Positions 7,406-52,078 of a stretch of 64,000 nt of DNA are shown in pieces. The stretch comes from Branchiostoma floridae. Its lineage: Eukaryota > Chordata > Leptocardii > Amphioxiformes > Branchiostomatidae. The translations under genes and the position numbers were made by a program. The stretch lies in contig NC_049996.1 in NCBI RefSeq assembly GCF_000003815.2, forward strand, positions 4,932,362 to 4,996,361. The letters run 5' to 3'. Numbering within the stretch: the first letter of the stretch is position 1; the number at the start of each line of letters is the position of its first letter. The notes under the pieces are model-generated. The model did not search any database. It saw only the letters and a program-made list of their open reading frames with translations, and was not told the origin of the DNA.

Positions 7406-7426
7406 TTCAGCACCAAGGACAGGTAC
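7406..7426 (+). promoter_or_regulatory. RE1 (NRSF/REST)-like motif
   Basis: The site reads TTCAGCACCAAGGACAGGTA. It matches the vertebrate RE1 core (TTCAGCACC, two free bases, GGACAG) at every core position; the final GCGCC part of the consensus is not matched. RE1 is the DNA site of the zinc-finger repressor REST in vertebrates. Function here is inferred only from the match. Confidence 0.5.
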
Positions 7427-8201
7427 AGTTGTCTTAGTGTGAATATCAATCACTTCTAGGATTTTGGTTAGAAAAGGATGACCAACACTCTATGGGATAT
7501 ATCTGAATTCTACCCAGCATATCAGATGCAGAATAATGACCATATTTGGTATACAAAACAATCTAAACAGTATGAGTGAGGGTGAAACACAACATTTAAC
7601 TGCTATTCTACATTTTTCAGCCATGAAAGAAAATTTTATGGAAAACTCAAATTTTGCAAAGATTCAAAACTTATAGATTTGTTTATACATGTAGATGGGT
7701 ACATATGTGGGAGTCACTAAAAGTCTAAGTCTTACTCTTAGTTTAATTCTACATACTAGGCATACTAAAAGACCATAAAGAAAAAAATATTTATTGTAAA
7801 ACTGGCTGAATTACGGTTTAAAATCTATAATATATAAAGTCTATCATATGTAAAAAGCAAATGCTAGGATAATCATGCAAAAAAGCAGCTTTGCCAAATT
7901 AATAGTCACACATTTCATCAAAGCTGAATATTAGAGATAAGAATTTCTACAGTTAGCAAGAAGGCAAGATGTTCACGCTAGGATAACTCAATACTACGCA
8001 GTACTGGTAGCCAAGGCAGACTGAGTTGGACACCGGAAACTAAGTTGTTAATTGATTTAAAGCAAAACACAGAGGCATCTTGCCAATGACATTTCTTTTG
8101 AAAACGTTAGATAAATAGCAAAAAATTAAGATTCAAATCCTGAGTATCAATTTGAAGATGATTCTTCTGAATCAACAAATGAACGCTTTCTATTTGCAGC
8201 A

Positions 8202-49300: not shown

Positions 49301-52078
49301 CCGGCAACACGGCAGGCGGATTCGAACCGGCGACCTCTCGGTCACGGGCCGAATATGCTACCACTGTGCTACGCGGCCGAACCCATATTTAAGAAGCCAC
49401 AAGGGTGGCAGTTCTTTTGCGGAGGTAGTCATTATATTAGTACCAGATTGACTGCATACCACTGGCTACGTAATTACTATACTGGGCACTTGTTCAGTGT
49501 TGACTGTATATCAATGGCCGGGTGGCTGTAATGTAGACCTTAACAGGTCGACTGTATATCAATGACCAGGTAGCCCGTATGCAGAGGTGGCCATACACTA
49601 ACACATGTTTTACTTTCCGTCTATGGCTTAGTGGTACTTATACAGACGAGGTCCTTATGTAGAGCTGGTTACTTGAACAGGTTTAACATAGTCAGATGGT
49701 TATATGATCTGTTTATAACAGGCATTGATTATTGAACCTCTCATATGATAGGGAGGGTGAAATGTGTTGTGCTGTATTTAACAGGCACTGACCTGATTGT
49801 GCCGCTGAACAGCACGGGGTCCTGAGGGATGATTGACAGACGTGACCTTAGCAAGGTCAAGGGCACACGACTGATGTCCACTCCATCTATGGATATTACA
49901 CCTGGAGAAAGAAAACACAGTAGATAGCAAATAACAAGCAGCATAACATAGTGTCAGTTATCCAGATATCCAAATTAACAAAAGTTGCACATTAGCGAGA
50001 AGAACGGGACCCGTGCACCCATCTACTTTTTAACCCATGCCTTTTGTTCGGAACCAAGGGCAGAGATGTGCATTTATGTATGATATGGGGTCTGCACCAA
50101 GTATATAACTATTTTCTTACGTATACTCATAATCGTAATCATCTTTATTATACTTAGTTTTTAGCCAAAAGACATTTTTACTCATCCATGCATGTTTAGT
50201 GTTCAACACCACAGGCAGATCCACTTGTTAGCGTATTTGCAGTGTTCAGCACCAAGGGCAGATCCAGTCATACATTGTTCAGCTCAAAGATCTAGAACTT
50301 GATGACGAACGATGAATGTAAAGAACAAAGTGCAAACCTTACCTTCAAACATGTCAATCATCCTGAAGAGAGCCAGAGTGAGGGAAGATTTCCCACTGCC
50401 TGTCCTGCCACAGATGCCGACCTGAGTGGACCATCTAAGAAGTCAATGCGTTTCAAAGCTATACAAGACAACCTTTAGTGTAATAAATCATACCAGAGAC
50501 TGCAATAGTAGATCCATTAGGGGATACTTGCCCCTTGTCTGTGAAGTATATTATGCTACCAGACCATCAGTATTGGATTTGCATAATAATAATCTAAAAA
50601 GTGACAAACATGGACTCAGTAAAATGACAATGTTGCGGAATGTGTTATCTAGTGAATTAAACACTTCATCCGATGTAAAATGGTTTGAAGCCATAAAAGA
50701 TCAATTACATGCAACCTAATGATTTTAAGTCTGGCAAATATTGTATATACTGCAATGACCTCATTTCTTAATTCTTGATTTTCAATTCTGGATTTTAAGT
50801 TTGCTGTTGACTGTAATGTCTATCATACACTTATGTTAACATATAATTTCTGTTTGTGCATTCGTCCTTTTATTATGATTACATATACCTTTTAGATTAG
50901 CGCCGATAGGGGCTAAATTGTATCTCAATAAACTGAAAAATACTCTACGGGGAGATAACAGGCAGAAGTAAGCAATCATCTGTTTTGTTTGCACATTTCA
51001 GTGTGATTTTGATGGTAAAATTAAATAAAAAGACAAATGAAGAACATGATCCATACCTCCGAAAATAATTTCATCAGGATGGTAGAATATAGGATATATA
51101 AGAATTCTTGTACACAACCAATATTGAACTTACTTGCTGACATCGAAACGTCAGCAAGTAAGTTCAATTTTGGTTGTGTACAAGAATTCTCATATATCCT
51201 ATGATCCATACCTTCTCCCCTGCCCTGATGTTAGCCGTTACCGTGGTGAGGACAGGGTCCAGAGTCCGGTCATACCGGGCAGACAAGCTGTCCAACTGAA
51301 CTGTGCCGGACGCCGGCCATTCCTCGGGCGGGATGGTGTTACCTGTGGGATATGGTCGATTCGGTTAAGGTAAATCCCAACTTTCTTGCAGTGCTAGCCA
51401 TGTTTGCTGTGAGCCCCCATGGGTTGAATCTCCCTTACATCAAAATCGTTTAATCATTCCAGTGAACCAAACAGATCAAACAGACAAAATTATTCTCCAA
51501 AATGAGGTTGGTGGATTAGATTGTGACCTTTCCATTATACGCCCTGTTTTCCGTCAGCACTCCCCGCCATGCACAAAATAGAGCATAATTATGAAAAAAA
51601 GGTCACACTCTACCCCACCAACCACTGCTTGTAGAGTCGGCAACCTCTACTGATACTGATACGAATGTGGCATCTACTGAAAGAAGCAATTCCAACTTTG
51701 TCACTGTTTCCATCTAGTTGTAAACTATCAGCTTCTAATACATGCTCCAACTGTCCCTGTCTTTGAGTGTATAACTATTTTATTCGACTGAATATTCAAT
51801 ACTACTAACTCTTCTTATCATTTGATTCTTGAACTTTTTTAAATATTTGAACTGAGTATGTATATGTGGTCTCAACTAGTTGCCATCCTAGTTACCCATT
51901 CATATGTTTTCTTGGGATTCTAATAGAGAAAGACAGAAAGAGTAGGCATATGCTGACCTGATTTCTGTTGGTAAATCTCTCCCGGTACTTTTGAGTAGGT
52001 GTCCACCCTCTCAACACTCGTCATGCATGTTTCAACCTTAGCAAAGCTATTTACCGTTAAGAACAGCTCTAACTGCAT
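46306..52078 (-). CDS. ABCC exons for NBD2 and C-terminus
   Basis: Exons: 52078-51958, 51342-51212, 50421-50343, 49901-49793, 48766-48663, 48100-48051, 47304-47221, 46975-46913 and 46443-46306. Motifs: Walker [11 protein letters not shown]-loop [14 protein letters not shown], a degenerate signature NFSVGQRQ (LSGGQ expected), Walker B plus catalytic Glu [13 protein letters not shown], and H-loop VAHRI. Site 2 pairs this NBD2 with the canonical NBD1 signature and should be the active one. The protein ends FTTMVKANK. The final exon ends in the triplicated 70-bp unit. Confidence 0.93.

Follow-up and report, generated by a model that had tools for sequence, protein, structure and literature searches.

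The RE1-like sites in a 64-kb stretch of lancelet DNA (the window, that is, the whole of the 64,000 nucleotides analysed) belong, judged from sequence, to a genome-wide class of RE1-like cis-elements. RE1/REST is a textbook case of neuronal gene silencing. The element is a 17-bp word, TTCAGCACC-NN-GGACAG, present in thousands of copies with a rigid 2-bp spacing between its two half-sites, and it occurs in same-strand clusters and tandem arrays such as local duplication would produce. It looks like RE1 as far as its letters tell, is not a proven REST site, and is probably bound by a REST-type zinc-finger protein. The most likely reading is a predicted binding site for a REST-type C2H2 protein that is kept by selection, to which we assign a probability of about one half.

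RE1-like sites in the window and in the genome

Exact matches to TTCAGCACCNNGGACAG lie at 7406 and 14525 in the 64-kb window. The initial annotation had named six sites, and all six were recovered where it placed them: two exact, three with one mismatch and one (17266) with two. Its claim of a single orientation holds for these six but fails at three mismatches, where a minus-strand site appears. The sites are as follows:

7406..7422, plus strand: RE1-like site with an exact RE1 core; paralogue of 14525
14525..14541, plus strand: RE1-like site with an exact RE1 core; paralogue of 7406
17266..17282, plus strand: RE1-like site with two mismatches; 14519-14561 aligns with 17260-17305
18042..18058, plus strand: RE1-like site with one mismatch; paralogue of 33501
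33501..33517, plus strand: RE1-like site with one mismatch; paralogue of 18042
50245, plus strand: RE1-like site with one mismatch; part of the group at 50045..50290
41256..41272, minus strand: RE1-like site on the opposite strand, three mismatches
50047, 50202 and 59079, plus strand: RE1-like sites with three mismatches

We compared these counts with Markov windows, permuted motifs and dinucleotide shuffles. Thirty first-order Markov windows contained on average 0, 0, 0 and 0.7 matches at 0, 1, 2 and 3 mismatches, respectively, and in 5,000 permutations of the motif the counts observed in the window were never reached. The pattern TCAGYACCNNGG had seven matches (six plus, one minus) against 0.12 expected, with a maximum of three in 100 shuffles. 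The window's most over-represented dispersed, complex 12-mer is TCAGCACCAAGG, found at five places.

The initial annotation had proposed a scan with the REST matrix, and the outcome bore out its sites. On a human matrix built from 14 published NRSEs (PMC1794552, Table 1), the six named sites were the top six in the window, with scores of 19.7-27.4. This lies within the span of 19.0-35.6 obtained for the 14 human sites, from which the matrix itself is made. Five of the six exceeded the best score in 60 simulated windows (20.36), site 18042 barely so (20.41), and site 14525 fell below it (19.66) because of its 3' tail. When the mismatches of the window sites were compared with random placements on the human matrix, 461 of 20,000 placements were as good for three sites, and 224 of 20,000 for seven sites, a set from which 33501 was dropped as a copy of 18042; this is weakly favourable to substitutions at positions tolerated by REST.

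The word is abundant far beyond the window. The assembly searched (513 Mb, 431 contigs) contains the window at C18:4932362-4996361. A lancelet fluorescent protein, used as an approximate query, matched this assembly 68 times at 34-88% identity, in clusters on C4 and C17 and at lone loci on C14 and C3, so that the source is very probably a Branchiostoma; the GFP Pfam profile had 0 matches, as in its 14 control genomes, and probably overlooks short exons. The exact 15-base RE1 core with a 2-bp spacer has 7,427 matches in the assembly (3,462 and 3,965 by strand) against about 0.5-1 expected, and a backwards control pattern has one. Allowing up to one mismatch gives 16,728 matches, against 22 for the backwards control. 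The possibility that the window sites are chance matches chosen after the fact has only the post-hoc choice of motif in its favour; the Markov, permutation and shuffle controls, together with the genome-wide control count, led us to reject it, and we consider it extremely improbable.

The spacing is tightly constrained. Spacers of 3-12 bp together account for 162 genome matches, against the 7,427 with a spacer of 2. Among the first 100 of these 162 listed, 76 also hold a spacer-2 right half with at most two mismatches; of the 24 remaining, non-canonical matches, seven have 8-9 bp spacers, which make up two of the ten spacer classes, so the 8-9 bp form known for REST shows no clear enrichment. 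In a human massively parallel reporter assay, as described in the accessible part of the source, silencing is strongest with a 2-bp spacer and weaker with one of 8-9 bp (PMC9903721).

In listing order, the first 100 exact matches are all from contig C1 and group into 43 clusters (gap 2.5 kb), 33 of which have one exact site, corresponding to about 4.9 clusters per Mb in the listed part of C1. Each of the ten clusters with several exact sites is single-stranded. If C1 is typical, extrapolation gives roughly 2,500 loci genome-wide. As a background, viral contigs contained 103 stretches with an exact core, with one site each in the 80 listed.

Single sites, tandem arrays and duplicated blocks

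For the analysis of flanks, 40 stretches totalling 128 kb were fetched, covering 41 of the 43 C1 clusters (first 8.7 Mb of C1); they were taken around RE1 sites rather than at random places in the genome. We defined a single site as one with no other site (at most two mismatches) within 400 bp, giving 32 sites, 26 from C1 and six from the window. The C1 sites were picked as exact matches, so their core columns are fixed by choice and their flanks are free. Of the flank columns -19 to 0 and 18 to 57, none rose above 0.4 bit in the 32 sites; inside the word, A fills position 10 in 27 of the 32 sites and position 11 varies almost freely. By these columns, the single sites sampled stand in unrelated flanks. 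The alignment of sites with their flanks, which the initial annotation had suggested, tells against the binding-site reading: at E 0.001 or better it joined 30 of 496 pairs, all through the shared word, six of them over 59 bp or more.

Unrelated flanks around a genome-wide word that has the RE1 core and spacer fit a binding site. The shared flanks expected of a single high-copy transposon were absent from the 32 single sites, and 13 of 14 duplicated modules in the 7-37 kb part of the window had no match in the 128 kb from C1; one high-copy transposon is therefore not supported. For the fourteenth module, the match to the C1 stretches is confined to its end and falls in a dispersed repeat. Elsewhere the window had 92 matches in the same 128 kb, 17 of them starting at 50-52 kb.

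Part of the loci consist of head-to-tail units that carry the core, as minisatellites do; the group at 50045-50290 is among them and the single sites are not. The units measure 24/47, 40, 43, 43/48, 51 and 53 bp, with the 43-bp unit at four loci, and 20 of 21 loci with at least two sites have them all on one strand. Outside the core the monomers differ, except that GGATRGTG before the core is common to loci L114, L118 and L120. A further locus, L131:43-2109, holds nine same-strand sites with irregular spacing in 2 kb. Seven of its nine cores share an A at core position 15, so the core is not specially protected in this array.

The window contains one such group, next to exons of an ABC transporter:

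50045..50290, plus strand: decayed RE1 minisatellite, with sites 50047, 50202 and 50245

Sites 50202 and 50245 are 43 bp apart, and 50045-50290 aligns with the 43-bp arrays on C1 at 59-78% identity. We class the 50-kb sites as a decayed array of the 43-bp kind. Minus-strand ABC transporter exons occupy 48643-64000 and extend past the window edge; two exons were identified by search, and further exons up to 64 kb by eye only. The exon within 50287-50442 is closest to ABCC9 (1e-13) and ABCC8 (1e-11), the sulfonylurea receptor; for the one within 49744-49953, several ABC families match about equally. As judged by eye, about 80 bp separate the end of site 50245 from the ABCC8/9-like exon, and the site reads as lying in an intron.

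These arrays bear on the reading that the sites form a repeat or minisatellite family that carries an RE1-like core by accident, its amplified copies unbound and its single sites the remnants of decayed arrays. Arrays of 24, 40, 43, 51 and 53 bp do carry the core, the window group aligns with such arrays, multi-site loci are almost all single-stranded, the L131 core lacks special protection, and six pairs of single sites share longer flanks. Measured against six array monomers, however, the flanks of only one of 32 single sites were above the 99% level of shifted controls (three equalled it), no flank column is conserved among single sites, the monomers differ outside the core apart from the GGATRGTG of three loci, and the duplicated window modules are nearly all unmatched around the C1 sites. 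We regard this reading as distinctly unlikely. The initial annotation had offered an unknown repeat family as its second explanation: arrays and local same-strand duplications do carry the word, but nothing in the 32 single sites or the 128 kb from C1 points to one high-copy transposon.

Local duplication is also visible in the window itself. A paralogy search scored with match/mismatch +1/-1 revealed old same-strand paralogy across 7-37 kb. The initial annotation had stated that the flanks of 7406 and 14525 do not align; at this higher sensitivity they do, 7370-7422 matching 14489-14541 at 74% over 54 bp (offset 7119, E 0.007). This pair is collinear with 9503-9884 and 16606-17016 (67%, offset 7103). 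The duplicated segments, with one further candidate site, are:

9503..9884, plus strand: block b, copy 1; old duplication, carries TTAATCATAGCTCTTAGAT
16606..17016, plus strand: block b, copy 2, with 67% identity to the first copy
17861..18025, plus strand: block b, partial copy 3, paralogous to 16628-16790; directly upstream of site 18042
14688..14959, plus strand: segment paralogous to 16914-17193 (62%)
14171..14428, plus strand: segment paralogous to 36973-37350 (69-70%, two pieces)
18031..19311, plus strand: aligns in five pieces with its paralogue 33487-35416; in the first copy, two of these pieces overlap
33487..35416, plus strand: paralogue of 18031-19311
10035..10051, plus strand: weak RE1-like site that scores 9.2 on the matrix and may be decayed

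In the pair 18031-19311/33487-35416 the RE1 block is the best kept: 18031-18086 and 33487-33544 are 85% identical, against 60-70% in the neighbouring pieces, and the 17-mers at 18042 and 33501 differ solely in the free spacer. Across the paralogous window pairs the core is better kept than its surroundings, with the qualification that the pairs were found via their cores. When the stretch from 7406 to 9503 was forced into a global alignment, it reached 42% over its full length, without clear likeness. The weak site at 10035 lies 151 bp past block b copy 1, and 17266 lies 250 bp past the end of copy 2. In 150 random 250-bp stretches the best place scored -1.0 on average, with a 95% level of 4.7; the stretch searched around 10035 comprised 366 places. 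A second decayed site predicted by 14688-14959 was not found (best score 4.5).

Other features of the window were recorded alongside. A second short word, TTAATCATAGCTCTTAGAT, is exact at 9530, 16638 and 17871, although the three copies of block b that carry it have diverged in other respects. The plus strand is A-rich over long stretches (6001-24000 and 32001-36000) that hold the majority of the RE1 sites and duplicated blocks, and old duplications occur elsewhere too, for example at 39156-39899. A 193-bp inverted repeat at 12485-12677, possibly a MITE, holds below-threshold matches to miRNA models (12535-12625). An RNA gene or tRNA in the window was rejected, since no Rfam family reached its gathering score and ARAGORN finds no tRNA. 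About nine 155-bp units form a tandem array at 21661-23058. At E 0.001, Pfam gave nothing in 123 of 137 open frames of at least 50 aa in 1-23.6 kb, nor in 109 others (100 of 101 in 31.9-48.7 kb and nine plus-strand frames further right). DNA transposon pieces lie at 23642-30350, their mix of domains being what we take to be Harbinger/ISL2EU:

23642-24079, plus strand: THAP frame
25380-26525, plus strand: DDE_Tnp_4 frame
29088-30350, minus strand: YqaJ frame

The candidate binding protein

The genome was searched with the human REST fingers, using an approximate sequence as the query. There were 613 matches, many clustered on contigs C158, C10, C16, C200 and C323; the best was a poly-C2H2 frame of generic type with 45% identity, 24 bits above the next. 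Fingers 2-4 and 6-8 searched alone gave generic C2H2 matches only. At the 16 loci compared, at most 10 of 28-32 contact residues agreed with REST, and a codon pattern for the finger-3 helix had two genome matches, neither of them a zinc finger. The search for a REST-like protein that the initial annotation called for thus produced generic C2H2 matches but, in three protein searches that each scored 147-150 of 3,719-6,308 candidates and one codon pattern, no clear one-to-one REST orthologue. A REST gene may have been missed because few candidates were scored and genes are split by introns. The clustered poly-C2H2 frames on C158, C10, C16, C323 and C200 often have, in the loci compared, C-x2-C-x-Y fingers as in REST. 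In the accessible part of PMC4332667, a REST family tree is rooted with a Ciona gene, so that a relative is reported in a tunicate.

The sites themselves also differ from human RE1 beyond the core. The vertebrate CGCC tail (positions 18-21) is not enriched: nine of the 7,427 exact matches carry it, where base composition alone predicts about 14. Over 54 declustered sites, the bases at positions 18-21 tend towards those of the human columns, and none of 570 flank offsets is as good, but the true column order comes only third among 24 and the G+C content of these positions is elevated. Likeness to human RE1 at these positions, suggestive in the 54 sites, is countered by the genome-wide CGCC count. 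Position 10 is A in 49 of the 54 sites.

These observations bear directly on a rival reading in which the word is bound by a C2H2 protein other than REST and has no role in neuronal silencing, serving for example in repeat silencing, insulation or loop anchoring; its likeness to RE1 would then come from similar finger chemistry or from a very ancient finger gene ancestral to both proteins. Such a protein would be in keeping with 613 finger matches, many of them clustered, among which no REST orthologue was found in the candidates scored, with the unenriched tail, with the strong A at position 10 and with the density of about 4.9 exact-site clusters per Mb in the listed part of C1. On the other hand, agreement with both vertebrate half-sites in 15 positions and in the 2-bp spacer would be unlikely to arise unless the DNA-binding domains descend from a common ancestor. 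We consider this reading unlikely, if by no means negligible.

RE1-type control, the first explanation in the initial annotation, therefore stands in part: the core, the 2-bp spacer and the unrelated flanks fit a binding site, but because no clear REST orthologue was found among the candidates scored and CGCC is not enriched, control by REST itself is not established. On the preferred reading, a REST-type C2H2 site kept by selection, the word would be bound by a C2H2 zinc-finger protein that contacts the RE1 core as REST does, and would probably act via co-repressor recruitment. Clusters like the one in the window would serve as homotypic silencers, with the ABCC8/9-like gene next to it as a possible target. 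Old local duplication of the 7-37 kb block would have multiplied an ancestral site, the flanks then decaying around the cores, and the 50-kb group would be a decayed array of the 43-bp kind adjoining an exon. We infer both the step from sequence to binding and that from binding to silencing of the ABCC8/9-like or another gene.

More broadly, we suggest, tentatively and at somewhat less than even odds, that an RE1-type regulatory system predates the vertebrates and is very abundant in lancelets, where cores would be used both one at a time and in preformed tandem arrays that act as silencers. The protein that reads them would be a C2H2 protein other than a simple REST orthologue, possibly one from the large zinc-finger gene clusters. 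With thousands of exact RE1 cores in a lancelet, this DNA specificity would be older than the vertebrates. They also raise the question of which protein reads them, and the single, clustered and arrayed sites would form a natural set for the effect of copy number on silencing. The lancelet genome that holds these cores is presumably about one sixth of the human genome in size, and RE1 density per megabase is perhaps higher in lancelets than in mammals.

Comparison with known systems

NRSE motifs are described in vertebrates in the accessible part of a review (PMC10605157). In the open-licence literature, the titles and abstract openings of the best matches contained no description of lancelet RE1-like sites.

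The closest comparison is with the vertebrate RE1/NRSE. Its core positions in human, 2-9 and 12-17 according to the accessible part of PMC1794552, are shared by the six window sites with at most two mismatches and, exactly, by the 7,427 genome matches. The two elements are alike in the 15 core positions, in both half-sites and in the 2-bp spacer, and the lancelet sites vary at positions 1, 6 and 15, as do the 14 human sites. They differ in that position 10 is strongly A in lancelet and mixed in the human sites, in that the G at position 14 of site 50245 is absent from the human set, and in that the lancelet element lacks CGCC enrichment at positions 18-21 and occurs in tandem arrays.

A second comparison is with mammalian RE1s spread by LINE2 and other transposable elements, as presented in the accessible parts of PMC4499139 and PMC4777549. 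Both have multiplied with repeated DNA; the lancelet single sites sampled, in contrast, have no common flank, and what is observed is local duplication and minisatellite arrays.

Among invertebrates, Charlatan is presented as the arthropod NRSF and shifted an RE1 probe in gel shifts; it also has a degenerate element of its own, and the accessible part of that source describes no genome-wide set of exact RE1 cores (PMC4777549). Within lancelets, the minisatellite-like 'mirages' (PMC3087553) resemble the arrays described here in being tandem duplications in or near introns of lancelet genes. Mirages differ in that they span exon-intron borders, with units of 10-160 bp, and the accessible part of their description mentions no RE1 core, which the lancelet arrays described here carry.
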